From the IMG/VR virus record IMGVR_UViG_3300025889_001006, positions 1 to 22,963 of that record: DNA of 22,963 bases. One strand, written 5' to 3'. Of this stretch, positions 1-12,521 are shown piece after piece; the stretch's first letter is position 1, and every line of letters starts with the position of its first letter. The notes below the pieces were generated by a model, which saw only the letters and a list, made by a program, of their open reading frames with translations, was not told the origin of the DNA and made no database searches. This DNA is from a virus. Both the position numbers and the translations under genes were made by a program.

Positions 1-1182
1 TGCAAGCGGAAAAATCCCCGGTTCGCCTACATTGCGCCATTCTACCGCCAAGCGAAGGACGTGGCTTGGCAGATTCTCCAGGACCACACCGAAGCAATAC
101 CGCAGCGCGTCGTGTCGCAAGCGGAACTCTCGGTAACGCTTCCCAACGGCGGGCGCGTCCGGCTCTACGGGGCGGACAACCCTGACAGTCTTCGCGGCAT
201 CTACCTCGACGGCTTGGTGGTCGACGAGGTCGCCGACCTGCGGCCCAATGTCTGGGGCGAGGTGCTGAGGCCAGCACTGGCTGACCGCAAGGGCTGGGCC
301 ATCTTCATCGGCACGCCTAGGGGCATCAACCTGTTTAGCGAGCTGTACTACGCCGCAGTCGAAGATCCGGCATGGTTCGCAGGCCATTATCCCGTGTCGC
401 GCACAGGCATTTTGGATGCTGATGAGCTGGCTATGATTCGGGCAACCTCGACCGACAGCCAGTATGCGCAAGAGATGGAATGCGACTTCAACGCTGCGGT
501 CGATAACGCGCTGATACCGCTCGACCTCGTGCTGCGCGCGTCAGGCAAGCACATGGCGCTGCAGGACGTGGCGGGGGCGCCGAAAGTGCTGGGCGTCGAT
601 GTGGCGCGCTATGGCGACGATCGCAGCGTCATCTTCCCCCGCCAGGGGCTGGTGGCGTTTAAGCCACGGGTGATGCGCGGGGTCAACAACATGGACCTTG
701 CCGGCATGGTGGCGGCGGCGATTGACAAGTGGAAGCCAGACGCGGTGATGGTGGACGCCGGCCGGGGGGAGGGCGTGATTGACAGGTTGCGGCAGCTGGG
801 GCATGAGGTCCACGAGGTAAACTTCGGCGGGAAAGCGGGCGACCCGCACTACGTCAACAAGCGTGCAGAGATGTGGGACAGCATGCGCCGATGGCTGGAG
901 GCCGGGGCCTGTATTCCCAACATGGTCGAACTGAAAACGGACCTGTGCGCCCCGACCTACTCATACGCCAACGCGGCCAACCGATTCGAGCTGGAGAGCA
1001 AAGACAAAATGAAGGAACGCGGGCTTTCCTCGCCAGACGTTGCCGATGCGCTCGCGCTGACGTTTGCGCACCCAGTGGCCCCCCGCCCTATAGAACTGCG
1101 GGAGTCCCAGCCCAGGGGGAGCTATAACCCTATCCGCGACAGATTAAACGTTGCGAAGTCCCCAGCCGCTCGGCTAAACTAA
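1..1182 (+). CDS. Phage terminase large subunit, C-terminal part (5' end outside window)
   Basis: This protein is the DNA-packaging motor: an ATPase that pumps DNA through the portal and a nuclease that cuts concatemers. The frame is open from base 1, so the start and the Walker A region lie upstream; 393 residues are visible. A Walker B element (LDGLVVDE, nt 205-228) is followed by the IFIGTPRG motif typical of terminases. The RNase H-like nuclease domain shows its acidic residues: Asp200 in GVDVARYGDD, Asp252 in VMVDAGRGEG and Asp346/Asp349 in SSPDVADA, counting from the first visible residue. Both halves of the enzyme therefore look intact. The portal gene follows two genes' width downstream, the usual packaging order. 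The gene is GC-rich (39 of 60 bases at 721-780). Its stop codon lies inside the first unit of an 11-bp repeat array. The assignment is secure; the exact subfamily is not resolved. Confidence 0.95.
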   Translation, partial: CKRKNPRFAYIAPFYRQAKDVAWQILQDHTEAIPQRVVSQAELSVTLPNGGRVRLYGADNPDSLRGIYLDGLVVDEVADLRPNVWGEVLRPALADRKGWAIFIGTPRGINLFSELYYAAVEDPAWFAGHYPVSRTGILDADELAMIRATSTDSQYAQEMECDFNAAVDNALIPLDLVLRASGKHMALQDVAGAPKVLGVDVARYGDDRSVIFPRQGLVAFKPRVMRGVNNMDLAGMVAAAIDKWKPDAVMVDAGRGEGVIDRLRQLGHEVHEVNFGGKAGDPHYVNKRAEMWDSMRRWLEAGACIPNMVELKTDLCAPTYSYANAANRFELESKDKMKERGLSSPDVADALALTFAHPVAPRPIELRESQPRGSYNPIRDRLNVAKSPAARLN

Positions 1183-1222
1183 TAACAGCTTATAAACAAT
1201 TTATTAACAGGTTATACACAGG
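1179..1222 (+). repeat. 11-bp tandem repeat array with DnaA-box-like 9-mers
   Basis: Four consecutive 11-bp units are visible: CTAATAACAGC (1179), TTATAAACAAT (1190), TTATTAACAGG (1201) and TTATACACAGG (1212). The first nine bases of the last unit, TTATACACA, match the DnaA-box consensus TTATNCACA exactly; the two units before it each differ by one base. The 11-bp period puts the units on nearly the same helix face. The array starts in the terminase stop codon and ends in the ribosome binding site of the next gene. The repeat is seen directly; binding by DnaA or another protein is inference. Confidence 0.7.
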
Positions 1223-1231
1223 AGTTAATAT

Positions 1232-1432
1232 ATGTGTATCGGACCTAAAGCGCCCAAGATGGCGCCGCCCCCACCTCCGCCTCCGACTATGAGTGATGCC
1301 GCCATGCAGGGCGCATATAGCGGCGAAAAGCGCCGGCAGCGTGCTATGTCTGGCCGTGGCTCGACCATCCTGACGGGCGGCTCGGGGATCATGGGGGCCG
1401 CCCCAACGGGTAAGACGGTACTTGGCGGCTAA
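1232..1432 (+). CDS. Small proline- and glycine-rich phage protein
   Basis: A 66-residue product lies between terminase and portal. Its N-terminus begins MCIGPKAP and is followed by a run of seven prolines; its C-terminus is Gly/Thr-rich (TILTGGSG, then GKTVLGG). Small proteins with an MC start, a disordered middle and a (K)TLLG-like end are common at this spot in podovirus-like genomes, but I know of no established function. The ATG at 1232 is preceded by AGGAG at 1220-1224, a good ribosome binding site, which also abuts the 11-bp repeat array. The protein looks largely disordered and basic in the middle (EKRRQRAMSGRG). It could be a virion component or an assembly factor; this is inference from position only. 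Confidence 0.75.
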   Translation: MCIGPKAPKMAPPPPPPPTMSDAAMQGAYSGEKRRQRAMSGRGSTILTGGSGIMGAAPTGKTVLGG

Positions 1433-1489
1433 CGAAGTCGCGGCTAGGGTAGGCACACGCGAAGGGCACGCACGCATGGCGGTAAACTT

Positions 1490-3178
1490 ATGGCGATAGA
1501 CGAAAAGAAGCTAAAAGACCGCGTTTTTAATCGTCGCCGTGTTCTGCGCGATGAGCGGGACCATTACGCGACGGACTGGCGCGAGCTGTCTGATTTCGTC
1601 ATGGGGTCGCGTGGGCGCTTCCTGCCTGGGGATGGAGATAATCAGGACGAAGCTACGCACCGTCGAAACGAGCGGCTATATAACGAAGTCGCAAAGATGT
1701 CGGCTAACATCCTGTCTGCGGGCATGATGGCGGGCATAACGTCGCCCGCTCGCCCGTGGTTCAAGCTGACCCACCCCGACCCGGAGTTAGAAGAATACGC
1801 GCCGGTTAAGCTTTGGCTTGATGACGTGCAGCGGGTAATCCTGCAGATATTCGCGCGTTCGAATTTCTATAACACCATGCAGAATATTTACCTTGAGCTG
1901 GGGATATTCGGCACGGCGTGCATGTGCGCGTATGAAAATTTCGATAACGTCCTGCGTTACGAACCCTACACCATCGGGTCGTTCACCCTGGCGCTGGACG
2001 GCGAGCGCAACGTCGACACCATGTACCGCGAATATCGGACGACGGTGGGCAGCGTGGTTAAGCGTTTCGGGACCGATGCCGTCAGCCGCACGGTTAAGAA
2101 CCTGTGGGACCGTGGCGATTACGACTCCAAGCTGAACGTGATACACGCTATCGAGCCTAACGTAGACCGCGATTATGGCTCCCCACTGGCGCGTAACATG
2201 CCGTACCGCAGCGTGTACTACGAAGAAGGCGGCGACGGGTATAAGCCGCTCCTGATATCGGGGTTCCAGGAAAAGCCATTCATGGCGCCGCGGTGGTCGG
2301 TGATTGCCGAGGACGTATACGCCACGTCCTACCCCGGCATCGATTCGCTGGCGTCGAATAAGTCTCTGCAAATAGAAGAACTCGATAAGGCTATCGCTAT
2401 CGAGAAGATGCACAACCCGCCGCTGGTGGGGGATAGCTCACTGAAGCAGGCGGGCGCAGAACTCATCGCGGGCGGGATTACTTATATCCCGAACATGGCC
2501 GCGACGGGTAAGGCGGGGCTGTCACCCGTATACGATGTCAACCCGCGCATCATGGAGCTGGTGCAAAGCATCCAGGAAAAAGAAGAGCGCATCCGGCGGT
2601 TTTTCTACGCTGACCTGTTCCTGATGGTCACTGAGCTGGACCGTGCGCAGATTACGGCAACCGAAATTGCCGAGCGCAAAGAAGAAAAGATGCTGATGCT
2701 CGGGCCGGTTCTGGAGCGCCTGAATAACGAGCTTCTGGACCCTGTGATCGACCGCACGTTCGCAGTCGCTCAGCGTGCCGGAATATTGCCCCCGCCTCCG
2801 CCAGAGCTGGAAGATGCAGACCTGCGCGTGGAATACGTCAGCGTACTGGCCCAGGCTCAGCGCGCGGTGTCCACGGCATCGGTTGAAGCCACGATCGCGT
2901 TCGCGGGGAATATGTCGCAGATATGGCCGGAAGCGCGCCATAAGATTGACCCGTATCAGGCGATTGACGATTACGCCCGCGCGAAGGGCGCCTCACCGAA
3001 GATTATCCGCACCGACGACGAAGCGCAGGAAGCCGCCGCAGCAGAGCAGCAGATGATGCAGATGCAGCAAGCCGCGGCGATGGGCGCTGGTGCCGCTGAG
3101 TCTGCGAGGACACTGAGCGAGACGGACACGGGGAACCCGGATAGTGCGCTGGCGATGCTGTCGGGAGCGGTGGCGTGA
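1490..3178 (+). CDS. Portal / head-to-tail connector protein
   Basis: The 562-residue product resembles the head-tail connecting protein family of short-tailed phages (T7 gp8-like). The portal is a ring at one capsid vertex through which DNA enters and leaves and onto which the tail adaptor is built. Supporting features are the N-terminal segment rich in charged helices, the SANILSAGMMAGITSPARPWFKL stretch split around residues 65-87, and the C-terminal half with LFLMVTELDRAQITATEIAERKEEK, a sequence pattern typical of these portals. The C-terminus is Gln/Met/Ala-rich and ends LAMLSGAVA. The length is usual for the family. The ATG at 1490 is the only start after an in-frame TAG at 1445, although its ribosome binding site is weak. 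The stop overlaps the GTG of the next gene (GTGA), suggesting translational coupling. Confidence 0.92.
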   Translation: MAIDEKKLKDRVFNRRRVLRDERDHYATDWRELSDFVMGSRGRFLPGDGDNQDEATHRRNERLYNEVAKMSANILSAGMMAGITSPARPWFKLTHPDPELEEYAPVKLWLDDVQRVILQIFARSNFYNTMQNIYLELGIFGTACMCAYENFDNVLRYEPYTIGSFTLALDGERNVDTMYREYRTTVGSVVKRFGTDAVSRTVKNLWDRGDYDSKLNVIHAIEPNVDRDYGSPLARNMPYRSVYYEEGGDGYKPLLISGFQEKPFMAPRWSVIAEDVYATSYPGIDSLASNKSLQIEELDKAIAIEKMHNPPLVGDSSLKQAGAELIAGGITYIPNMAATGKAGLSPVYDVNPRIMELVQSIQEKEERIRRFFYADLFLMVTELDRAQITATEIAERKEEKMLMLGPVLERLNNELLDPVIDRTFAVAQRAGILPPPPPELEDADLRVEYVSVLAQAQRAVSTASVEATIAFAGNMSQIWPEARHKIDPYQAIDDYARAKGASPKIIRTDDEAQEAAAAEQQMMQMQQAAAMGAGAAESARTLSETDTGNPDSALAMLSGAVA

Positions 3179-3585
3179 CCTCGCCGCGTGAATCTGGCGA
3201 AGTTGGCGAAGTGGTGGTCGTAACCTCGCCATGGGGGGGTCGTAAATTGAGCGGATGGCTCACAGGTTGGGAAACGTGGCTGGAGCACGGCGTCGCCTGC
3301 TTGGCATTTCAGGCGCTTGTGGGTTGGATGGTGGGTAATTACCTGTGGCCGGCTGTCGTGGCGGTTGCGTTTTTCATGGGGCGCGAAGTGGCGCAGGTCG
3401 AGGATAAAGGCCGCAGCGAACTGGTTAAGTGCGCGGACGGTAAATATCTGCGCTGCCACGTAAACACCCTGAACTCGCTAGGGTTTGGGTATGCGTTCCT
3501 GAGCCCGCGGGAGTGGTCCTTCGATTCGATTATGGACCTCGTTGTCCCGGTGGTTATGTGTATTCCTTTAATGGTGTGGGTATGA
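3175..3585 (+). CDS. Predicted small membrane protein, unknown role
   Basis: A 136-residue product starting GTG at 3175, overlapping the portal stop. Hydrophobic segments at about residues 39-53, 56-69 and 119-136 suggest two or three membrane passes, with a hydrophilic loop holding Cys86 and Cys94 between them. I do not recognise a family. Membrane proteins in a phage late block can be holins, spanin parts or superinfection-exclusion proteins, so lysis is possible but unproven. The start is uncertain: a TTG at 3247, seven bases after a run of seven Gs (3233-3239), would remove the 24 hydrophilic N-terminal residues. The G run also makes this spot prone to indels. The motif CCTCGCC occurs twice in the first 60 bases. 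The protein ends inside a 14-bp tandem duplication at 3574-3601. Confidence 0.65.
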   Translation: MTSPRESGEVGEVVVVTSPWGGRKLSGWLTGWETWLEHGVACLAFQALVGWMVGNYLWPAVVAVAFFMGREVAQVEDKGRSELVKCADGKYLRCHVNTLNSLGFGYAFLSPREWSFDSIMDLVVPVVMCIPLMVWV

Positions 3586-3601
3586 GCGTGTGGGTATGAG
3601 C
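3574..3601 (+). repeat. Perfect 14-bp tandem duplication at a gene junction
   Basis: GTGTGGGTATGAGC is present twice back to back, at 3574-3587 and 3588-3601. The first copy carries the stop codon of the upstream membrane-protein gene. The second copy pushes the next start (ATG 3603) 14 bases further away. Because 14 is not a multiple of three, the event also changes which frame the ATGAGC triplets open. It looks like a recent replication-slippage event. Confidence 0.85.
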
Positions 3602-3602
3602 C

Positions 3603-3869
3603 ATGGCATCAAGCGACGAAACGATAATCAGCAGAGTGGCGGAGAAGATAGAGAGAAATGGCTACAGCGGCCCGGACCGACGTACTCCGCCACCCTCCTC
3701 TCCATCGGACCTACTGAAGTGGGTGCCCCTGCTCGTCGTCGCGACCAGTGGATACAGTGGCTACGTCGCGATGCAGCACGACGTTGAGCGATTGCAGCGC
3801 GATGTGTCTGAGATACGCGCCGATATGAAAGACAGCCACAGTGCGCTCTGGAGGAAGGTTACCGAATGA
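3603..3869 (+). CDS. Predicted single-pass membrane protein with coiled coil
   Basis: The 88-residue product has an amphipathic N-terminal segment, the motif GYSGPDRR followed by a Pro/Ser-rich linker (residues 20-35), one hydrophobic segment at about 37-57 and a C-terminal coiled-coil stretch (59-76, heptad-like VERLQRDVSEIRADM). It has no signal-peptidase site that I can see. The architecture, with a short cytoplasmic N-terminus, one membrane span and a helical tail, would fit a small holin or spanin-like protein, but I recognise no specific family. The ATG at 3603 sits just after the 14-bp duplication and has a poor ribosome binding site. An overlapping frame at 3590-3787 is less protein-like. 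The stop overlaps the next ATG (ATGA). Confidence 0.6.
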   Translation: MASSDETIISRVAEKIERNGYSGPDRRTPPPSSPSDLLKWVPLLVVATSGYSGYVAMQHDVERLQRDVSEIRADMKDSHSALWRKVTE

Positions 3870-4210
3870 GTCGCAGCGGTTCGTCGAATGTTTCGCCGCA
3901 CGCGCGGAACTCAGAGAAGGAGATACGGGAGCGCGAAAAAGAATTGCAGCAGGAAAAGCATAAGCAGCAGCAGCTCCATAACGACCGGGTAGCGTTGCTG
4001 AAGATGCCAGAGTTCCAGCGCGTAATGGCAGATGTAATTGCAAAAGGGGGGATGTTTCGGTCAGTGATGACGGGAAACTCCACGACCTACCACCTCTCGG
4101 GGCGGCAGGATTTTGCGAGGGAGATATGGGCCGATATGGCCCGCGCAAACCAAGACTTGGCTTTTGATTTGTTAAAGCCAAAGTGGGATTGGGAGGATGT
4201 TGTTAATTAA
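3866..4210 (+). CDS. Bbp19-like phage protein
   Basis: The 114-residue product has a highly charged helical N-terminal half (EKEIREREKELQQEKHKQQQ, residues 17-36) and a compact C-terminal half with the pattern FRSVMTGNSTTYHLSGRQDFAREI (split here as MTGNSTTY and SGRQDF). That second part resembles the Bbp19 family of BPP-1-type phages, found between portal and capsid genes. The family's biochemical role is not established; its position suggests a minor head or assembly protein. A strong ribosome binding site (GGAGGAAGG, about 3850-3858) precedes the ATG, which overlaps the upstream stop as ATGA. Family assignment is from recalled motif similarity. Confidence 0.75.
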   Translation: MSRSGSSNVSPHARNSEKEIREREKELQQEKHKQQQLHNDRVALLKMPEFQRVMADVIAKGGMFRSVMTGNSTTYHLSGRQDFAREIWADMARANQDLAFDLLKPKWDWEDVVN

Positions 4211-4234
4211 TGTTTGGGTTTGTTTTTGATTTTT

Positions 4235-4239
4235 GGAGA
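4235..4239 (+). promoter_or_regulatory. Ribosome binding site fixing the scaffold gene start
   Basis: GGAGA lies five bases upstream of ATG 4245. A TTG at 4233 in the same frame would place this site inside the gene, so the ATG is the better start. The upstream stretch 4211-4234 is almost all G and T on the + strand. Confidence 0.7.
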
Positions 4240-4244
4240 ATTCG

Positions 4245-4883
4245 ATGACTGACGAATACAGCGGACAGAATGACACCGAATCCGCAGGTGAAAGTCAGGC
4301 AGCGGATACTGCAAGCGGAGACAGCACGTTACTGACGGGGAGCGAAAGCCAACCGCAGGACGCGCCAGTCGAGGCGAGCAGTGCTGATGCTGACGGTAAT
4401 GAAGAACCAGCACCTGAGATACCTGAGAAGTACGAGTTCAACATGCCAAATGGCATGGAAGTGGACCAGTCACTGGCTGATGAAGCCTTGCCTGTGTTCA
4501 AGGAACTCGGCCTGTCTCAGGAGCAAGCGGACAAGCTGACCGGCCTAATGGTCGCAAAGGCTGAACGTGATTCTCAGATGATGGCTGATGCTTACCAGAA
4601 GCAGATAAGCGATTGGGCTACTGAGTTGAAAAACGATAAGGACGTGGGCGGAGAGGCGTTTGAAAAGAATGTTTCTGTTGCTCGCGAGGCCATCGATAAG
4701 TTCGGGTCTCCCGAATTGAGAGATGCACTTAATAGCACGGGCATGGGAAACCACCCGGAAGTTTTTAAGTTTGCTCTCGCTGTTGGTAAATACCTTGTCG
4801 AGGACCAACCAGGCTCAGGTGAACCCGCCAAGATGGAGTCGGTGATTGAAAGTCGCCTGTACCCCAACGAGGCACGACACTAA
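4245..4883 (+). CDS. Scaffold-like capsid assembly protein
   Basis: The 212-residue product begins MTDEYSGQND. The first third is acidic and low in complexity (Glu, Asp, Ser, Ala), and the rest is mainly helical, with the segment YEFNMPNGMEVDQSL followed by FKELGLSQEQADKLTGL. This pattern is common in podovirus scaffold proteins, which fill the procapsid and guide coat assembly, then leave or are degraded. Its place immediately before the major capsid gene supports that role. No serine-protease signature is obvious, so I do not call a maturation protease. The TTG at 4233 is rejected as the start because the ribosome binding site GGAGA overlaps it. Confidence 0.8.
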   Translation: MTDEYSGQNDTESAGESQAADTASGDSTLLTGSESQPQDAPVEASSADADGNEEPAPEIPEKYEFNMPNGMEVDQSLADEALPVFKELGLSQEQADKLTGLMVAKAERDSQMMADAYQKQISDWATELKNDKDVGGEAFEKNVSVAREAIDKFGSPELRDALNSTGMGNHPEVFKFALAVGKYLVEDQPGSGEPAKMESVIESRLYPNEARH

Positions 4884-4897
4884 ATCATTCTGTCCGT

Positions 4898-4904
4898 AAG
4901 GAGA
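4898..4904 (+). promoter_or_regulatory. Strong ribosome binding site of the major capsid gene
   Basis: AAGGAGA ends seven bases before ATG 4912. It is the best match to the Shine-Dalgarno consensus I noticed in the window, as expected for the most abundant virion protein. It rules out the TTG at 4906, which is in the same frame but too close to the site. Confidence 0.8.
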
Positions 4905-4911
4905 TTTGACT

Positions 4912-5928
4912 ATGGCTACTTTGGGAAATAACTATCCCACGCTGGCGGACCTCGCCAAGCAGATGGATGGTCAGGGGAATGTCGTATCCGACATCATTGA
5001 GATTCTGAGTGATACCAACCAGATTCTCATGGATATGCCGTTCTTTGAGTGCAACAACGGAACCAAGCACCTGACGACGATTCGCAGCGGTATCCCGACG
5101 GGTACGTGGCGTCGTCTGTATCAGGGCGTTCAGCCGTCGAAGGCTACCAACACGCAGGTTGAAGATGCGTGCGGCATGCTGGAGTCTTGGTCCGAAGTTG
5201 ATTCCAAGCTGATTGACCTCAGCAACAACCCGGCTCGTTTCCGTCTGAACGAGGCCCGTGCTTTCCTTGAAGGCATGAACCGTCAGATGGCAACAGCTGT
5301 TTTCTACGGCAACACCGATACCGACCCCGAGCAGTTCCACGGACTTGCTCCGCGTTTTGACAGCCTGTCCGCTGAGAATGGCGGCCAGATTGTAAACGCA
5401 GGCGGCTCTGGCGCTGACAACACCTCCATCTGGATGGTTGTCTGGGGCGAGCGTACTTGCCACGGTATCTATCCGAAAGGCAGCAAAGCTGGGCTTGCGC
5501 GTGAGGACAAGGGCAAGACCACCAAAGAAGTCTCGGATGGTTCGCTGTATGACGTCCATCGTGAGAAGTTCATGTGGGACTGCGGCCTGTCGGTTCGTGA
5601 CTGGCGGTATATCGTTCGCATCGCAAACATCGATGTCAGCGACATGCAGGCAGGAAACACCGATATGTTTGCTCTTCTGCGTCAGGGCTACTGGAAACTG
5701 AAACAGCGGGAAATCAGCGGTGGCCGTGCGGCTATCTACTGCAACGCTGACGTTCTTGAGGCTCTGGATGCACAGGCAACGCCGACGGTTTCGACCAGCA
5801 CCACCACGTCAAGCGGCAACGTCCGCCTGCGTGTAAGCGAAGTCGAAGGTCGTGAGGTGATGACCTATCGCGGCATGCCTTTGCGTGAATGCGATGCCAT
5901 CCTGAACACCGAAGCTGCGGTGTCTTAA
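4912..5928 (+). CDS. Major capsid protein (epsilon15 gp7 / Bbp17-like)
   Basis: The 338-residue product forms the icosahedral shell. It resembles the GP7-type coat proteins of epsilon15 and BPP-1 Bbp17, which have an HK97-like fold. Typical segments are the N-terminal helix with YPTLADLAKQMD, then ILMDMPFFECNNGTKHLTTIRSG split around residues 43-65, GTWRRLYQGVQPSK, and the central AVFYGNTDTDPEQFHGLAPRF split around residues 129-149. The length is normal for the family and no N-terminal delta domain is apparent, so scaffolding is expected to be supplied by the separate upstream gene. The start ATG is set by the AAGGAGA site. A cement-protein gene follows after 27 bases, the same order as bbp17-bbp16 in BPP-1. 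Confidence 0.92.
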   Translation: MATLGNNYPTLADLAKQMDGQGNVVSDIIEILSDTNQILMDMPFFECNNGTKHLTTIRSGIPTGTWRRLYQGVQPSKATNTQVEDACGMLESWSEVDSKLIDLSNNPARFRLNEARAFLEGMNRQMATAVFYGNTDTDPEQFHGLAPRFDSLSAENGGQIVNAGGSGADNTSIWMVVWGERTCHGIYPKGSKAGLAREDKGKTTKEVSDGSLYDVHREKFMWDCGLSVRDWRYIVRIANIDVSDMQAGNTDMFALLRQGYWKLKQREISGGRAAIYCNADVLEALDAQATPTVSTSTTTSSGNVRLRVSEVEGREVMTYRGMPLRECDAILNTEAAVS

Positions 5929-5955
5929 TCGGAATCAACTGACAGGAGAACCGTT

Positions 5956-6408
5956 ATGATTCTTGATACTTACTCCTTGCTGTCCGATGACCAGGATTTG
6001 GCTCAGGCAGCGGGCACGTACTACAGCAATGTGCTGAACCTTTATGGTGACCCGGGGTACACCACCTCGGCAGACGCGCCTAACGGTGTCGCTCAGTCCC
6101 TTGGCAAAGGCTACCCTGTGGAGCTTCTTGTCCAGATTACTGAGACCTTCACCTCTGGCGGTGCTGCAACTCTGGTTGTGTCGCTGGAAGTTGACGACAA
6201 TGAGTCGTTTACTTCGGCAACCACCGTTGTTTCCAGCACGACGTTTGCTCTGGCTGGCCTTGTTGCCGGCACCTACCTCCTGCCGCAGCATGTTCCTTAT
6301 GGCGTAGACGAGCAGTATGTTCGTATTAAATACACCATCGGGACGGCTGCTACCACGGCAGGCAAGGTGACCGCTGGCATTGTCATGGGTCATCAGTCCA
6401 ACCGCTGA
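5956..6408 (+). CDS. Bbp16-like capsid cement protein
   Basis: The 150-residue product starts MILDTYSLLSDDQ and is beta-rich with many Val, Thr, Gly and Ala residues. It resembles the Bbp16 cement protein, which binds the outside of the BPP-1 capsid and stabilises it. The conserved features recalled for this family are the N-terminal DxxSLLSDxQ, the NVLNLYGDPGY-like segment, and the central segment describing a jelly-roll-like strand pattern with VQITETFTSGGAATLVVSL split around residues 57-75. A ribosome binding site AGGAG precedes the ATG. The gene is the last before a strong terminator, so capsid and cement proteins probably share one abundant transcript. Confidence 0.85.
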   Translation: MILDTYSLLSDDQDLAQAAGTYYSNVLNLYGDPGYTTSADAPNGVAQSLGKGYPVELLVQITETFTSGGAATLVVSLEVDDNESFTSATTVVSSTTFALAGLVAGTYLLPQHVPYGVDEQYVRIKYTIGTAATTAGKVTAGIVMGHQSNR

Positions 6409-6415
6409 TAAGACT

Positions 6416-6443
6416 GGGAGGGGGCTTCGGCTCCCTCCCTTTT
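6416..6443 (+). terminator. Intrinsic (Rho-independent) terminator with UUCG tetraloop
   Basis: A 10-bp stem GGGAGGGGGC / GCTCCCTCCC, with one G-U pair, closes on the very stable TTCG loop and is followed by TTTT. It begins seven bases after the cement-protein stop and ends 13 bases before the next ATG. It is the only convincing terminator in the window and would lower expression of the downstream tail genes relative to the capsid genes. Confidence 0.9.
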
Positions 6444-6456
6444 AACTGGAGGCTTT

Positions 6457-6699
6457 ATGGCCGTTCGTTATCGGGTGACCAAACCCTGCTTCTATCAAGG
6501 CTGCTTCCGCGAGCCTGGGAACAAACATGAAATTGTTGTTCTTCCTGAGAAATTAGCTGCGAAAGACACGCCAAGTTATTTAGAGTTTGTTCCAGAGCCT
6601 AAGCCTGAGACAACTCGCGGGCGTAAAAAAGAAGATGTTGTCGAGCCAGAACCTGTAGAATACGAGGCAGTCTCGATTGCTGACACTGATGTAATTTAG
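6457..6699 (+). CDS. Small acidic phage protein, Bbp15 position
   Basis: The 80-residue product begins MAVRYRVTKPCFYQGCFREPG, which has a short beta-like head with two cysteines (Cys11, Cys16), then HEIVVLPEK and PSYLEFV. The C-terminal half is low complexity with many Glu, Pro and Lys (KPETTRGRKKEDVVEPEPVE). Small proteins with a compact basic head and a charged Pro-rich tail are common between capsid and adaptor genes in these phages; I know of no firm function. The ribosome binding site CTGGAGG lies just after the terminator. The last codons form the first copy of a short direct repeat (6682-6714). Confidence 0.7.
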   Translation: MAVRYRVTKPCFYQGCFREPGNKHEIVVLPEKLAAKDTPSYLEFVPEPKPETTRGRKKEDVVEPEPVEYEAVSIADTDVI

Positions 6700-6714
6700 C
6701 GACACTGAGGTAAT
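6682..6714 (+). repeat. Short direct repeat spanning a gene junction
   Basis: GACACTGATGTAAT (6682-6695) and GACACTGAGGTAAT (6701-6714) match at 13 of 14 positions with a 19-base period. The first copy encodes the C-terminus of the small acidic protein; the second lies between genes and its GAGG forms the ribosome binding site of the adaptor gene at 6720. Confidence 0.8.
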
Positions 6715-6719
6715 CTGAA

Positions 6720-7406
6720 ATGGCAACGTCAGTGGATATCTGCAACCTAGCATTAAGTCGGGTGCGGGCCGGAAGTATTGGCAGTTTGACGGAGAATTCT
6801 CCGCAATCTGTGCAGTGCAATATCCTGTACGGGCAAGCCCGCGACCATCTGCTGACCTTGTTTTCGTGGCCGTTTGCTAAAGAGACCCGCGCACTCAGCT
6901 TGACGGGGAATACGCCGGTCGAATGGCTGTATGAGTACGATTACCCCAACGATTGCCTGCGGGTGCATTACATCATCCCGCCGGAAAGTGGGAAAAACAT
7001 AGTCACGGGCACTGGCATAGCTACGCCACGGATTGACTATGAACCCATCCCGTATGAGATAGGCACGGGCGACGGCGGCACGCGGGTCATCCTGACTGAC
7101 TATGATGACGCCTATATCAGCTATACGAAGTCAGTAACGGACACTAACCTTTTTGACCCGCTGTTTGTGCAGTGCCTAGCGTGGCTTCTCGCTAGTGACC
7201 TCGCCATCCCATTAGGCGGCGATAGCGGTAGATCTTACCGTGATGCGGCACGACAGGCTTTTGGTGACGCGATTCAGCAGGCCATAGCGCACGCTTCCAA
7301 TGAAGGCGAAGATGGGCGTCCAAGGCTACCGCGCTCCATACAGGCACGTCACGGCGCTGTAGACCGTGACTATTTTTACGGTGATTTGGCATATCGGAGA
7401 TACTGA
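6720..7406 (+). CDS. Tail adaptor (tail tubular protein A-like, Bbp14 position)
   Basis: The 228-residue product resembles the adaptor proteins that form a ring between portal and tail nozzle in short-tailed phages (T7 gp11-like). The N-terminal pattern SVDICNLALSRVRAGSIGSL, split as SVDICNLALSRV and the following helix, then YGQARDHLLTLFSWPFAKE, is characteristic: paired helices, a conserved W-P-F-A, then a beta region with LYEYDYPNDCLRV. Its length is close to usual. The ribosome binding site GAGG comes from a short duplication. The stop overlaps the ATG of the nozzle gene (TGATG), consistent with coupled production of two parts of the same tail tube. Confidence 0.85.
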   Translation: MATSVDICNLALSRVRAGSIGSLTENSPQSVQCNILYGQARDHLLTLFSWPFAKETRALSLTGNTPVEWLYEYDYPNDCLRVHYIIPPESGKNIVTGTGIATPRIDYEPIPYEIGTGDGGTRVILTDYDDAYISYTKSVTDTNLFDPLFVQCLAWLLASDLAIPLGGDSGRSYRDAARQAFGDAIQQAIAHASNEGEDGRPRLPRSIQARHGAVDRDYFYGDLAYRRY

Positions 7407-9922
7407 TGCCTCGCGATATGCAGACATCGTTTTCGGGCGGGGAACTGTCTCCAAGCCTGCATTCGCATGCAGACTTGGCGAAATACAGAACTGGGCTGGC
7501 TAAGTGCGAGAATTTTTTTGTGCTGTCTCAAGGCGGCGCGATTACTCGCCCGGGGTTTGAGTATATCGCAGAGGTAAAATCTAGCACGTCTTTGGCTCGC
7601 GTTATCCCGTTTCAGTTCAATACAGAGCAAGCCTATGCACTAGTCCTGACCAACCAGAGAATGCGGATTATTAGGGATGGCGGCGTTGTCCTGGAAGCAA
7701 CTAAAACCATCACTGGCGCAACTCAAGCTAACCCTGTCCAGATAACGGTCGCGTCACACGGCTACTCGACCGGCGACGACGTATATATCGCAAGCGTCGG
7801 CGGCATGACAGAGCTGAACGGGCGGTTTTTCAAGGTTACGAACACTGGAACTAACACGTTTACGCTGAATGGCGTAGACGGCACAGGCTACACCGCATAC
7901 ACGTCTGGGGGGACGTCGGCCAGAGTCTACACAGTGACGACCCCCTGGGTTCAGGCTGATTTATTTCGTTTGAAATACACGCAGTCTGCAGACGTGATGA
8001 CCATAACTCATCCTGACTATGCGCCGCGAGATGTATCACGCACAGCGCATAACAACTGGACAATATCGACTATTAGCTTTGGAACGTCTGTCACAACGCC
8101 AACTGGTGTGGCTGTGGCGCCAATAGGCACGGCAACATCGTTTCCTTTTAAGCAATATCGCTATCGAGTGACCGCTGCCGACGACACAGGCGATGAATCG
8201 CTGCAATCTGCTGTTGTTAGCACCTCTCAGAATGCGATGGATGCGACGTATGGCGCCAAAATAACTTGGACTCAGGTAGCCGGCGCTGCTTATTACAACG
8301 TCTACAAAGAATACTCGACAGGCTCTGATTTGTATTATTTTTTGGGGGAAGCCCAAGAAAATGCATCGCCTGAATTCCAAGATTACAATTTCGCGCCAGA
8401 CTTATCGCAATCTACGCCTCAAGCGCGCAATCCTTTTAATGGGGCAAATAAATATCCAGCATGCGTTACATATCATCAGCAACGCAAAGTATTTGCTAGT
8501 ACAAACAATAATCCTCAAACAGTCTGGTTCACGCGCACAGCGGACTTTGACAACATGAACGAGTCACGTCCGCTTAGGGCTGATGATTCGATTGAGGCAA
8601 CACTTGCAGCTAAGCAAGTCAACGAAATACGCCACCTTGTTTCCCTGGATGAGCTGATTGTCTTTACATCTGGCGGCGAGTGGAAGGTTGTTGCCGACCA
8701 AGACGGCGTTATCACGCCGCTAAACATTAATTTTAAGCCACAAGGTTTTCGTGGCTGCTCTCACGTAGTTCCTTTGATTATTGGCGGCACGGCGCTGTAC
8801 ATACAGGAAAAAGGCTCGCGCGTGCGAGACCTCCGCTACGTATTTGAAGATGATAAATACATGGGCGACGACATGACTGTGATGTCGCGCCATCTGTTTG
8901 AAGGACACACCGTCGTTGACTGGTGCTACTCACAGGAGCCTTACTCAATTATTTGGGCTGTGCGTGATGATGGCGTCCTGCTTTCGTTCACCTATCTCCG
9001 CGAGCATAACGTCTATGCCTGGGCGCGACACACGACTGATGGCACGTTTGAGTCCGTTTGCTCTATCTCAGAAGGCAATGAAGACGTTGTTTACGTCGTG
9101 GTTAAACGCACGATTAACGGCTCTGACGTGCGCTACGTAGAAAGACTGCATGAGCGCTATTTTACGGACATACAGGACGCGTTCTGCGTAGACTCAGGGC
9201 TTACCTATACTGGCTCGACAGGAACGATTACAGCGGCAACCAAAGCGTCTCCGGTTGTTGTTACGTCAACGGGGCACGGGTTGTCGGATGGAGACGTTAT
9301 CTGGATACGTGATGTTGTCGGGATGGTGGAGCTGAACGACATTCAGTACAAGGTCGCCAACTCCACGGCGAATACGTTTGAATTGACAACGCTAAACGGC
9401 TACGACATAGACGGCACGAACTTTACGGCCTATGCGTCCGGCGGCACGTGGTACGCCTGCACCAGTACCATCAGTAATCTGTACCACCTTGAAGGCGAGA
9501 ATCTGGTGGCGCTGGCAGACGGTAACACGGTCAATTCGCTGACCGTCTCTGACGGCGCCGTTACCCTGCCAAACCCTGCTTGGAAGGTGCATGTTGGCCT
9601 GCCTTATAACTGCGACATACAGACCCTTGAGGTATCGATACAGGGCGCAGTAATGCAGTCGCGCAAAAAACAGGTTGCGCGGGTTTCGATACGCTTGCTG
9701 GATGGCCGCGGACTGAGTGTAGGTCGCGACCCGTCCAGCCTGTATGAGATTAAAGAACGCACGCCTGGGATGAACTACGGGAATATCCCGTCTCAGACAA
9801 CTGAAGAAAGACTAGAGGTTTTGCCGACGTGGACTGACTACGGGCAAGTCTATATCCGTCAGTCATACCCACTCCCGGCTACTGTGCTTGCAGTAATACC
9901 GGAGTTGGTAGTCGATGCCTAA
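7406..9922 (+). CDS. Tail nozzle (tail tubular protein B-like) with two FCCH-like inserts
   Basis: The 838-residue product resembles the Bbp13 / T7 gp12-type nozzle, the end of the tail tube below the adaptor. The N-terminus MPRDMQTSFSGGELSPSL, followed by KCENFFVLSQGGAITRPGF, is a typical opening of this family. Two related segments stand out. Residues about 102-176 carry NPVQITVASHGYSTGDDVYI, GMTELNGRFFKV and YTSGGT. Residues about 606-685 carry SPVVVTSTGHGLSDGDVIWI, GMVELNDIQYKV and YASGGT. Both fit the FCCH-type beta domain often annotated in phage tail proteins. Between them lies the beta-rich platform region (residues 350-560). A GGAGA site precedes the ATG. The length is at the upper end of the family because of these inserts. 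Confidence 0.88.
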   Translation: MPRDMQTSFSGGELSPSLHSHADLAKYRTGLAKCENFFVLSQGGAITRPGFEYIAEVKSSTSLARVIPFQFNTEQAYALVLTNQRMRIIRDGGVVLEATKTITGATQANPVQITVASHGYSTGDDVYIASVGGMTELNGRFFKVTNTGTNTFTLNGVDGTGYTAYTSGGTSARVYTVTTPWVQADLFRLKYTQSADVMTITHPDYAPRDVSRTAHNNWTISTISFGTSVTTPTGVAVAPIGTATSFPFKQYRYRVTAADDTGDESLQSAVVSTSQNAMDATYGAKITWTQVAGAAYYNVYKEYSTGSDLYYFLGEAQENASPEFQDYNFAPDLSQSTPQARNPFNGANKYPACVTYHQQRKVFASTNNNPQTVWFTRTADFDNMNESRPLRADDSIEATLAAKQVNEIRHLVSLDELIVFTSGGEWKVVADQDGVITPLNINFKPQGFRGCSHVVPLIIGGTALYIQEKGSRVRDLRYVFEDDKYMGDDMTVMSRHLFEGHTVVDWCYSQEPYSIIWAVRDDGVLLSFTYLREHNVYAWARHTTDGTFESVCSISEGNEDVVYVVVKRTINGSDVRYVERLHERYFTDIQDAFCVDSGLTYTGSTGTITAATKASPVVVTSTGHGLSDGDVIWIRDVVGMVELNDIQYKVANSTANTFELTTLNGYDIDGTNFTAYASGGTWYACTSTISNLYHLEGENLVALADGNTVNSLTVSDGAVTLPNPAWKVHVGLPYNCDIQTLEVSIQGAVMQSRKKQVARVSIRLLDGRGLSVGRDPSSLYEIKERTPGMNYGNIPSQTTEERLEVLPTWTDYGQVYIRQSYPLPATVLAVIPELVVDA

Positions 9923-10376
9923 TGCCTATGTCATAGACGCCAAGGAAGAGCACATCGAGCATATTGCTCAGCATATGCGTTCGGCAGACGTTCTCGAAGT
10001 AGAAGCCAGTGGCGTTTGGTCTCCAGAACAAGCGCTTTACAACGGCCTGATTTCTTCTAGCAAAGTCTGGACAGCTCTAATTGATGACGAACCAATCCTG
10101 ATGTTTGGAGTTGTCCCGGTATCTGTTCTAGGCGGGGTGGGCAGTCCCTGGCTATTAGGCACAGATAGAGTTCTCGACATTAAACGGCAGTTTATCAAGG
10201 AATGCAGGCATTACGTTGACGAAATGCTTAAACTATATCCGAAGCTGACTAACTATACCGATTGCCGTAATACCGTCAGTCACCGCTGGTTAGCTTGGTT
10301 GGGGTTTGAGCTAGAAGACGCGTTCCCGATAGGTATGAACAACGAACCGTTTTATCGGTTTTCAAAGAAGGCATAG
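9915..10376 (+). CDS. T7 gp13-like internal virion protein (GNAT-like fold)
   Basis: The 153-residue product resembles the T7 gp13 / DUF2833 family, small proteins near the internal core genes that appear to use a GNAT-like scaffold. Visible features are the opening strand-helix pattern AYVIDAKEEHIEHIAQHM, a central hydrophobic strand segment with MFGVVPVSVLGGVGSPWLLG split around residues 56-76, and the end RWLAWLGFELEDAFPIG, the typical last turn of the family. I do not see a clear acetyl-CoA P-loop (Q/RxxGxG/A), so it is more likely a structural or assembly protein than an active acetyltransferase. It overlaps the nozzle gene by eight bases. Confidence 0.78.
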   Translation: MPNAYVIDAKEEHIEHIAQHMRSADVLEVEASGVWSPEQALYNGLISSSKVWTALIDDEPILMFGVVPVSVLGGVGSPWLLGTDRVLDIKRQFIKECRHYVDEMLKLYPKLTNYTDCRNTVSHRWLAWLGFELEDAFPIGMNNEPFYRFSKKA

Positions 10377-10379
10377 GCT

Positions 10380-10919
10380 ATGTGTACACCTGCCATCATG
10401 AGTGGTTTAACTGTAGCAAGCACGCTATTTGGCGCTTACACGCAGTACCAGCAAGGCCGCTATCAGTCCCAGGTTGCTAAGAACAACGCGATGATTCAGC
10501 AGCGCATGGCGCAGGACGCTCTCGCGCGCGGGACACGCGAAGAGCAGATGATGAGAATTAAAGTCGCTCAAGCGAAAGGCCGACAAAGAGCGCAGTTCGG
10601 CGCATCTGGCGCGGAAGTCGGTTCTGGTTCTTCTCTATCGGCGCTTGCCGATACGGCGATGATGGGCGAGCTGGATGCACTGACGCTGAGGTCTGGCGCT
10701 CAACGCGAGGCTTATGCACAACAGATGCAGGCGTCTCAGTATCAGGCGCAGTCTAAGCTGGATCGTGCAGCGGGGCTATATGGCGCTGCGGGGACTTTGT
10801 TAGGTGGGGCAGGTCGCGTGTCTGAGCAGTGGTATAAGTACGGGAAGAGCAATAAAAAGCCGTCTGGTACGGGTAGCTACTCGTTTAATCCTATGAGTGG
10901 CTACGTGACAGAGTATTAA
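10380..10919 (+). CDS. Internal virion / core protein, T7 gp14-like
   Basis: The 179-residue product has an N-terminal hydrophobic segment (MSGLTVASTLFGAYTQYQQG, about residues 8-27), a long Ala/Gln-rich helical middle and the typical segment GASGAEVGSGSSLSALADT, which contains a conserved Gly-Ser-rich turn. Proteins with this layout form the smallest of the three ejected core proteins in T7-like and BPP-1-like phages and are thought to insert in the outer membrane during DNA entry. It begins four bases after the gp13-like gene and precedes the two large internal proteins, the expected order for a core cassette. Confidence 0.8.
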   Translation: MCTPAIMSGLTVASTLFGAYTQYQQGRYQSQVAKNNAMIQQRMAQDALARGTREEQMMRIKVAQAKGRQRAQFGASGAEVGSGSSLSALADTAMMGELDALTLRSGAQREAYAQQMQASQYQAQSKLDRAAGLYGAAGTLLGGAGRVSEQWYKYGKSNKKPSGTGSYSFNPMSGYVTEY

Positions 10920-10934
10920 TTTAGGGCGACTGAA

Positions 10935-12521
10935 ATGCCAAAAGTACAGCCATACGAACCTCAAGTTCGTCCTAGCCCGCTTCAGATTCCAGCGCAGCGG
11001 CTGGACCCGCGTGGCGCTTTTGGCGAGGCGCTGGTTGAGGGCGCTAGTCGATTTGCCAGCTCAATGGAGCGCATTCAGGACGAGGATGATAAGGCGGTTG
11101 TTAAGGACAGGATTAATCAGTATCGCGAGCGGTCGCGTGCACGTATGTTTGGCGACGACGATGCTTTCCTTAACAGGCAAGGTAAAGCTGCCTACGATTC
11201 CAGGAACGATGCCCGCGATGAGCTTAGTAAATACAGGGATGAGCTGTCTAAGGGCTTAAACGGCAACCAGCAGCGCATGTTCAGCACGTTGTCGCAGGAA
11301 TATCTTGACCGCGATTCTGAAAACATTGCAAAGCATGCTCAGAAGTCTCGGATATCCTGGCTGAACAGCGAAGATGAAGCGGGCGTTGAGTCTGCAAAAA
11401 ATGACGTTGCTCTTTACTGGAACAATCCTGCTCCCTACACCGCGCAGATACGCGGACTCGTTAATAACATTGCGCAACGAAACGGCTGGGGGCCGGAACA
11501 AAAGGAATTAAAGCTAGAAGAGGCGCTAACATCGGCTCACGCCAGCGCGATCGACAACATCCTGACTGATAACCCGCGAGGCGCAGAAGCGTATTTTCTG
11601 GAACATAAAGGCGAAATATCACCGAAGGTTTGGGATGATATAAGCAAAAAGATAGACACCGCTAAGACAAACGGACTGGCGCAGTATACTGCTGATGAAG
11701 CGATGCTACAGCCGGATTTGTCTCAGGCTCGCGAGTACATAAAAAACAAATTAGGAGACGAACCAGAAGCCCGAGAAAAGGCTAACAGGATTGTTGCTGA
11801 AGAGTATCGAATTCGAGAGCATCAAGAAAACGAACTTCGCAACGATTGGTTTACTGAAGGAGATTTATTTCGTCGCGACTTAAACCAATCTATTGAGCAG
11901 TGGAAAAGTCAAAACCCAGACAAATGGGCTTTTTTGACGCCCCAGCAGCGAGCCTATTTAGAAAGTAAGCCAAGTGTGGAAACAGACTTGCGAGCTTATT
12001 ATGAAGTTAAAGCTTTGATTGCTAGTGGTGACAATAATGGCGCTCTTAAGATAATTAGTCAGGCAAGATTTTCAGACTCAGACTCTAAGAAACTTATAGA
12101 TTCCATGTATAAGGCAAAGCCTGAAAGGAAAAATTTACAGACAGATTTGGCTTATGGTAAAGACAGAATAATAGACGCGGTTGGTCCGCAGCCACCTAAA
12201 AGTAAACCAGAAGCATACCGTCTTTGGCAAGCTCGGAACAATGTATTGATAGGTTGGTATCAGGAAGAGCTAGATAAATGGTACGAAGACAACCCTAACA
12301 AAGAAAATATTGATAACAATTCCAGAAAGGAAATTTTAGATAGGCTTAATATTGAGGTTCTGGTGGAAGACGCAGGGTGGTTTTATTTTGACGCTTTTCA
12401 AGGTATTCGGGATATTCCTGCACAAGACTATGTTGATATTGTTAGAGAATTAGAAACAGAAGGCCTATTAGCAAGTCCAGAAAACGTTCTTAAAACGTAT
12501 CAAATTAGAAAATCTCAATAA
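10935..12521 (+). CDS. Internal virion protein (528 aa, helical, gp15-like position)
   Basis: The 528-residue product is rich in charged helices. The N-terminal part has LDPRGAFGEALVEGASRFA, then RMFGDDDAFLNRQGKAAYDS, a pattern recurrent in podovirus internal proteins encoded between the small core protein and the largest ejection protein. The middle and C-terminal parts are Lys/Glu/Asn-rich and I recognise no enzymatic motif. It probably joins the ejected channel. The second half of the gene differs sharply in composition from its neighbours: 15 of 60 bases are G or C at 12301-12360, and AT-rich codons dominate from about 11870 on. Its last base overlaps the next ATG (TAATG), and there is no separate ribosome binding site for that gene. 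Confidence 0.75.
   Translation: MPKVQPYEPQVRPSPLQIPAQRLDPRGAFGEALVEGASRFASSMERIQDEDDKAVVKDRINQYRERSRARMFGDDDAFLNRQGKAAYDSRNDARDELSKYRDELSKGLNGNQQRMFSTLSQEYLDRDSENIAKHAQKSRISWLNSEDEAGVESAKNDVALYWNNPAPYTAQIRGLVNNIAQRNGWGPEQKELKLEEALTSAHASAIDNILTDNPRGAEAYFLEHKGEISPKVWDDISKKIDTAKTNGLAQYTADEAMLQPDLSQAREYIKNKLGDEPEAREKANRIVAEEYRIREHQENELRNDWFTEGDLFRRDLNQSIEQWKSQNPDKWAFLTPQQRAYLESKPSVETDLRAYYEVKALIASGDNNGALKIISQARFSDSDSKKLIDSMYKAKPERKNLQTDLAYGKDRIIDAVGPQPPKSKPEAYRLWQARNNVLIGWYQEELDKWYEDNPNKENIDNNSRKEILDRLNIEVLVEDAGWFYFDAFQGIRDIPAQDYVDIVRELETEGLLASPENVLKTYQIRKSQ

Follow-up and report, generated by a model that had tools for sequence, protein, structure and literature searches.

Why would the start of a head-gene operon in a virus hold a row of apparent binding sites for DnaA, the replication initiator of the host? 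The question is raised by the window analyzed here, i.e., the whole 22,963-bp stretch of the record IMGVR_UViG_3300025889_001006, which IMG/VR classes as linear and in which the early region lies outside the 23-kb fragment. The gap of 49 nt between the gene coding for the large terminase subunit (terL) and a 66-aa gene is mostly occupied by a tandem array of 11-bp units. The array belongs to a familiar class of site; its location is unusual, and it was found in a single lineage. Our best explanation, to which we give a probability of about 40%, is that the array is a lineage-specific operator of the head operon recognized by host DnaA, i.e., a triple DnaA box in a regulatory slot. The presence of DnaA boxes in a phage has a precedent, since they are marked in the origin predicted by Ori-Finder for a Pseudomonas phage (PMC11512268). 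Tandem DnaA boxes in phage structural operons are the subject of no report found among the titles and abstract openings searched, a search outside which most subscription journals lie.

The Array and Its Gene Neighborhood

The genes of the window lie on one strand in the order terL, 66-aa gene, portal, protease-like gene and major head protein, followed by tail and internal virion genes (Table 1). A phrog_831-like gene between terL and portal is present in most relatives examined, and a search with the 66-aa protein gave matches in three phage records. By portal identity, the nearest named phages are epsilon15-like podoviruses, namely Vibrio phage PS25B.1 (47%) and epsilon15 itself; a megablast of window positions 1-12000 against the phages collection returned no match to named phages. 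Six of the 20 window proteins scanned match no family. Downstream of the major head protein region, the intrinsic-terminator-like hairpin is the best of 12 terminator-like sites in positions 1-12000, a stretch in which shuffles yield 11.1 such sites, and it could be the end of the head operon. Elsewhere in the window, a perfect 14-bp tandem duplication (two copies of GTGTGGGTATGAGC, 3574-3601) spans the end of the ORF at 3175-3585 and the start of the ORF at 3590.

Table 1. Coordinates of the genes, array units and putative signals discussed in the text (window positions).
Feature	Position	Strand	Evidence and remarks
terL, terminase large subunit	1..1182	+	phrog_2, E 8.7e-36; ORF open at 5′ end, cut by window edge
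Weak sigma70-like candidate TTGCGA-18-TAAACT	1151..1180	+	8/12 matches; RNA would start near 1187, just before unit 2
Unit 1, degenerate, CTAATAACAGC	1179..1189	+	3 mismatches to TTATNCACA (by eye); overlaps terL stop
Unit 2, TTATAAACAAT (box TTATAAACA + AT)	1190..1200	+	1 mismatch to TTATNCACA
Unit 3, TTATTAACAGG (box TTATTAACA + GG)	1201..1211	+	1 mismatch to TTATNCACA
sigma70-like candidate TTAACA-16-TAATAT	1204..1231	+	9/12 matches; abuts ATG
Unit 4, TTATACACAGG (full DnaA box TTATACACA + GG)	1212..1222	+	0 mismatches to TTATNCACA
Shine-Dalgarno-like AGGAG of 66-aa gene	1220..1224	+	read from sequence; overlaps unit 4; 7 nt before ATG
66-aa gene, function unassigned	1232..1432	+	phrog_831, E 2.5e-16
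Portal / head-tail adaptor	1490..3178	+	phrog_332, E 6e-154; epsilon15 portal 43%
Protease-like gene	4233-4883	+	phrog_458
Major head protein (MCP)	4906-5928	+	phrog_212
Intrinsic-terminator-like hairpin + TTTT	6416..6443	+	10 pairs, 8 G-C; downstream of major head protein region

The earlier note on this DNA described four successive 11-bp units, the last of which holds a full DnaA-box match with two single-mismatch neighbors in phase. The second part of this description is exact, and the first holds for units 2 to 4; unit 1 is degenerate, its 9-mer CTAATAACA differing from the box at three positions (by eye) and the terL stop codon (1180-1182) lying inside it. The array therefore consists of three good units and one degenerate unit. 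The three boxes (TTATAAACA, 1190-1198; TTATTAACA, 1201-1209; TTATACACA, 1212-1220) all lie on the + strand, exactly 11 bp apart, with spacers of 2 bp throughout, and the single mismatch of TTATAAACA and of TTATTAACA falls at position 6, where positions 5-6 read AA and TA, respectively.

In + strand RNA of positions 1209-1246, base pairing is possible between unit 4 (GGUUAUACACA) and the opening codons of the 66-aa gene, with the Shine-Dalgarno site in the loop. The leader fold containing this hairpin is no better than that of shuffled sequences (z -0.67, 48/200), the slot RNA matches no Rfam family at the gathering threshold, and no IHF consensus is found near the slot of the window.

Likeness to Known DnaA Sites

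The strong boxes of oriC follow the consensus TT(A/T)TNCACA (PMC6070618). TTATACACA fits this consensus. In vivo, E. coli DnaA occupies box pairs separated by 2 or 3 bp, among them a 7/9 box beside a perfect box at purH, where shortening the spacer from 3 to 2 bp is tolerated and an inserted base pair strongly lowers DnaA binding (PMC11317965). The window array resembles these double boxes (purH, mutH/DARS2 and the region upstream of polA), in which 9-mers lie 2-3 bp apart, and it resembles purH in particular in setting a good box beside poorer ones (PMC11317965). On the other hand, it differs from the E. coli double boxes in having three good boxes, for which binding is putative, in belonging to a phage and lying at the start of a head-gene operon, and in reading AA and TA at positions 5-6 of two boxes. 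Within oriC, weak sites are grouped by four, 2 bp apart, into sub-arrays between strong R boxes (PMC6727663, PMC6070618), and the window array is like such a sub-array in its 2-bp spacers next to a strong box. It is unlike oriC in that no separate unwinding element or second arm was found at the array, and no replication gene adjoins it. Two features mark a DnaA array, namely at least two boxes near TTWTNCACA in the same direction and a spacer of 2 or 3 bp between them, and the window array shows both.

The repeat itself is real. Tandem Repeats Finder reports it at 1184-1222 with period 11, 3.5 copies, 75% matches and a score of 43, and its period-11 self-match extends over 21 of 28 columns. 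When the whole window was shuffled by dinucleotides, 4/300 shuffles attained this value at some period between 8 and 25; base shuffles of 1179-1231 attained it once in 20,000 (periods 8-15). Two or three tandem copies of TTATNNACA with a 2-bp spacer arose in none of 200,000 base shuffles of the latter segment. The bare repeat is thus only moderately rare for a 23-kb window and very unusual for its slot. The window contains eight copies of TTATNNACA where 2.14 are expected, a number reached by none of 100 shuffles, and three of the eight form the array. Only two full TTWTNCACA boxes are present in the 23 kb, and no other 40-bp span of the window contains three sites with at most one mismatch to TTWTNCACA. 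The record does not hold many equal copies at random places, an outcome that would have spoken against the array in the earlier note.

Conservation among Relatives

Relatives were drawn from the best 80 of 115 confirmed portal loci and the best 80 of 202 confirmed terL loci. A portal hit preceded by at least 650 nt is present in 119 loci, of which 106 are distinct (hits at E <= 1, so that a few distant ones are possibly misplaced), and a tandem pair of boxes at 2 or 3 bp was found in only one of these 106 upstream regions. The carrier, L017, is the same contig as L203, and it is likewise the only one among 48 relatives' records searched whole. A comparison of the same region in related phages thus finds the genes without the repeat in 105 of the 106, the other outcome named by the earlier note as speaking against the array, and the conservation among relatives expected of an iteron array is absent. 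The contig L203 differs from the window by 129 mismatches and nine gap openings in 2114 aligned columns (93% DNA identity). Its array is unchanged, and a single deletion lies in the leader after the array, outside the boxes; this is weak evidence of selection since positions 1050-1700 are already 95% identical, most of the remaining 5% being gaps. IMG sample 3300018424 is the source of L001, L017 and L203; given the 97-99% identity between L001 and the window, the latter may stem from this sample as well.

The slot itself is small in most of the group. The gap between terL and the 66-aa gene is at most 12 nt in 49 of the 67 relatives measured, and 12 gaps exceed 100 nt, several of which reflect a partial terL alignment and no true gap; five non-carriers (L003, L206, L216, L223, and L224) have gaps of 13-100 nt. 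Among genome contigs, six relatives were found, the best of which, a Methylophaga MAG with 60% portal identity, has a slot of 2 nt without array. Eight slots were compared with that of the window. The 44-nt slot of Vibrio phage 1.185.O (L444, 1332-1375) has CTAATAAC and TAAACAATTT in common with the window (6/2000 shuffles) and no boxes at DnaA spacing, and the slot of its relative PS25B.1 (L443, 1180-1225) has CTAATAAC and TAAACAATTT (or TAAACAATT) in common with it (10/2000 shuffles); these words are shared although portal identity is only ~47%. The other six are not notable. The relative 1.021.A has TGAATAATTT in its slot instead.

These comparisons lend weight to a reading in which nothing binds the array: chance and slippage would have produced box-like words from short duplications in an AT-rich leader that aids access of the ribosome to the start of the 66-aa gene. 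The array is missing from all relatives examined except one close variant, unit 4 merges with the Shine-Dalgarno site, the words found in Vibrio phage 1.185.O suggest that some of the AT-rich sequence may be older than the array, and, viewed as a bare repeat, the array is of only moderate rarity in the window (4/300 shuffles). However, the units agree with a recognized binding site both in their words and in the spacing that it favors, base shuffles of the slot produced no tandem pair or triple, and the boxes of L203 have stayed intact, a point that counts for little given the local identity. We regard this reading as plausible, though less probable than our best explanation.

Tandem Boxes across Virus Contigs

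Across the IMG/VR virus contigs, triple tandem TTATNNACA occurs in 14 stretches at a spacer of 1 bp, at least 120 at 2 bp, at least 120 at 3 bp and six at 4 bp, vs. 18 stretches at 2 bp and five at 3 bp for a mirrored-pattern control. These counts include duplicates; distinct arrays number 52 among the 80 listed 2-bp loci, nine of the 14 for 1 bp and nine of the 18 for the 2-bp mirror. Of the at least 120 stretches for each spacer, 80 loci were examined for 2 bp (L083-L162) and 80 for 3 bp (L164, L315-L393). The peak at 2 and 3 bp is the rule of the DnaA double boxes and supports the DnaA reading, and the class of element that the window array resembles is very probably the DnaA array. Within this class the window copy stands at the weak end: 28 of the 52 distinct 2-bp arrays among the 80 listed loci have C at position 6, which the pattern leaves free, in each of their three boxes, while the window has one C of three, as few as 10 of the 52, which have one C or none. 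The commonest 2-bp spacer is GG (81/170). In five loci (L110, L112, L123, L124, and L132), the array is followed by GGGAGTTTGGGAGTTTG-like text.

By shared 15-mers, the 80 listed 2-bp loci reduce to 63 distinct ones. Flanking genes, taken as naive ORFs of 80 aa or longer, could be scored at 39 of these; of the others, eight have an ORF that crosses the array, and 16 lack a second flanking ORF within 800 bp or have none there. Of the 39 arrays, 24 have codirectional, 13 divergent and two convergent flanks, which places them at gene starts rather than between gene ends. Intergenic location is by itself no evidence of function, since 71 of 104 real-pattern matches fall outside naive ORFs of at least 50 aa and all 23 mirror matches do so too. 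The neighbors of the arrays are mixed and include genes for replication initiation (L104) and single-strand DNA binding (L122) proteins, a RecE-like gene (L099), HNH, terminase, portal and head protease. In a PHROG tally of the 116 ORFs adjoining or crossing arrays at the 63 loci, terminase, HNH, portal, scaffold and replication families are among the 25 of 99 families listed, and a Pfam tally is equally mixed.

One group of loci bears a particular likeness to the window. In L117/L130/L144, the gap between portal and protease holds a three-box array with a TATAAT 8 nt downstream of it; as in the window, the spacers are 2 bp, one box is consensus and two have A at position 6, and the surroundings are a block of head genes. 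The gap is a different one, the direction of the array relative to the genes is opposite and no match to any window protein was found. L117/L130/L144 are thus a second, separate case of DnaA-type boxes inside a head-gene block.

Packaging, Replication and Titration

The earlier note listed a pac-like site and a replication origin among the possible roles of the array, and neither gains support here. A packaging site of the pac/cos type would adjoin terL as the array does; 27 of the 80 listed array loci match the TerL of the window by tblastn (duplicates included), and among the 26 records of at least 20 kb searched for TerL with phrog_2 or PF03354, 17 have a hit and five of these carry an array within ~2.1 kb upstream of terL. 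For these five records, a link to packaging is suggestive only. Such a site would be expected to be kept with its cognate terminase, but L204-L207, the TerL proteins of which are 55-67% identical to that of the window, have no array, and the site lies downstream of terL and not at terS. Furthermore, in 90 ORFs located more than 2.5 kb from arrays (48 of the 63 loci), terminase and head families are at least as frequent as near arrays, and for this reason a general link between arrays and packaging is not claimed. A packaging role is extremely unlikely.

As a DnaA-dependent origin, or an accessory part of one, the array would have in its favor a geometry that is the same as that of the oriC sub-arrays (PMC6727663, PMC6070618), as well as the virus-contig arrays that flank genes for replication initiation, single-strand DNA binding and RecE-like proteins. 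Against this, GC skew shows no sustained change of sign around 1.2 kb in the fragment, single 500-nt bins elsewhere being near zero or slightly negative, nor in the 2.1 kb of extra upstream sequence available in L203. AT-rich DNA is limited to ~60 bp (1174-1233, 77% AT), mostly the array itself, rather than a separate unwinding element; neither a replication protein nor a linked rep gene is found among the 20 window proteins scanned (a 23-kb fragment, with the early region outside); and relatives do not keep the array. We hold an origin at this place to be unlikely.

DnaA boxes on plasmids titrate DnaA (PMC5835720), and the array could in the same way be a sink that titrates host DnaA in favor of the phage. 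Two full TTWTNCACA boxes in 23 kb are few for this purpose unless the copy number is very high, and a sink does not need a fixed place at a gene start, so that titration appears very unlikely as the role of the array.

Candidate Regulatory Signals in the Slot

The annotation of epsilon15 (AY150271.2) places a terminator and sites for RNase III, IHF and a repressor between terL and gp3. The gene order around the slot is the same as in the window. The two slots differ in these IHF, RNase III and repressor sites and in an extra gene that epsilon15 carries on the opposite strand, and the text of the epsilon15 slot is not alignable to the window slot beyond chance (1241/2000 shuffles). Three of the five other relatives with gaps of 13-100 nt, their gaps being 57-59 nt long, have sigma70-like promoters in the slot with 9-10 of 12 matches: L003 (TTGATA-17-TAAAAT), L216 (TTGCGA-17-TATCAT) and L224 (TTGCCA-17-TATGAT). 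A score of 9/12 is reached in 2-6% of 1000 draws of random 140-nt stretches from these three loci, and in 1.8-7.5% across the loci of the five relatives (140-nt pieces). For L223, Vibrio phage 1.185.O and epsilon15, the best score in the slot is 8/12, and for L206 it is lower; Vibrio phage MZH0603 has a TTGACA in its 71-nt gap. In L216 (3694-3751) and L224 (1821-1880), the -10-like hexamer ends ~7 nt short of the start codon (ATG) of the phrog_831-like gene, so that the transcript would be nearly leaderless. From the epsilon15 annotation and the promoters of these three relatives, the slot looks regulatory, a place for head-operon control signals in this phage group when any exist. The regulatory role that the earlier note had entertained for the repeat fits this slot.

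The window has two promoter candidates of its own (Table 1). The better-scoring one is unlikely to serve the 66-aa gene, the ATG of which it abuts. The weaker one would place the boxes at about +3 to +33, from where a bound protein would be expected to repress.

A control site in this slot might also be read by a protein of the phage itself, i.e., the array might be the operator of a phage-encoded repressor or late activator that uses the 11-bp repeat. The epsilon15 repressor operator and IHF site, annotated in the same slot, are a precedent. However, the words of the array fit DnaA, the epsilon15 slot aligns with that of the window no better than chance, the repeat is not common to the relatives and no regulator gene is found among the 20 window proteins scanned, a gene that would be expected in the early region, outside the record. 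We consider a phage regulator quite unlikely.

A Possible Host-DnaA Operator of the Head Operon

Binding of a DnaA-type protein to the array, though putative, is likely. The cooperative binding of a protein that had been proposed for the array gains support, for DnaA in particular, from the spacing (PMC11317965), the quality of the boxes and the spacer peak of the virus contigs. E. coli DnaA represses or activates promoters that have boxes nearby (PMC8203912, PMC5835720). At the window array, the strong box of unit 4 would anchor DnaA, and the weaker boxes, 2 bp upstream, would fill cooperatively; bound DnaA might then block RNA polymerase that starts in the 49-nt slot or runs through it. With DnaA-ATP plentiful, expression of the head genes would be low; as copies of the phage DNA dilute DnaA over many sites, it would rise. 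The terminator-like hairpin at 6416 could end the regulated unit. We infer from the sequence that host DnaA binds here, that a promoter or read-through transcription is present and that the effect is in this direction.

In favor of a host-DnaA operator are the full box and two one-mismatch boxes on the same strand with 2-bp spacers, the spacer rule of the virus contigs together with the mostly codirectional or divergent flanks of their arrays, the regulatory slot of epsilon15 and the promoters of relatives, and the similar array in the portal-protease gap of L117/L130/L144. Against it, conservation fails, as only a close variant keeps the array; most relatives are almost gapless (49/67 with at most 12 nt); two of the three boxes have no C at position 6; the promoter candidates of the window are poor (8 and 9 of 12), the better one being badly placed; and the spacing rule is that of E. 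coli DnaA and may not be that of the host's DnaA.

Significance

Beyond the window, a broader proposal may be made: several unrelated tailed-phage groups would repeatedly have placed oligomer sites for host DnaA at the 5′ ends of structural operons, so that head-gene expression is set by the amount of free DnaA-ATP relative to the number of phage DNA copies, a switch from replication to assembly operated by the host initiator. The window would be one lineage-specific case, and the virus-contig arrays spaced by 2 or 3 bp would make up the general set. In this general form, we regard the proposal as speculative and rather improbable. For this phage, the element is small, its role is putative and it is not conserved in relatives. 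If DnaA binds the array, the replication initiator of the host would be a transcription signal for capsid genes, and the replication state of the host and the copy number of the phage would be linked to assembly. Independently of the window, the spacer spectrum of the virus contigs, high at 2 and 3 bp and low at 1 and 4 bp, suggests that viral tandem DnaA boxes are real DnaA sites, and the contigs that carry them point to phages in which a possible engagement of host DnaA can be tested directly.
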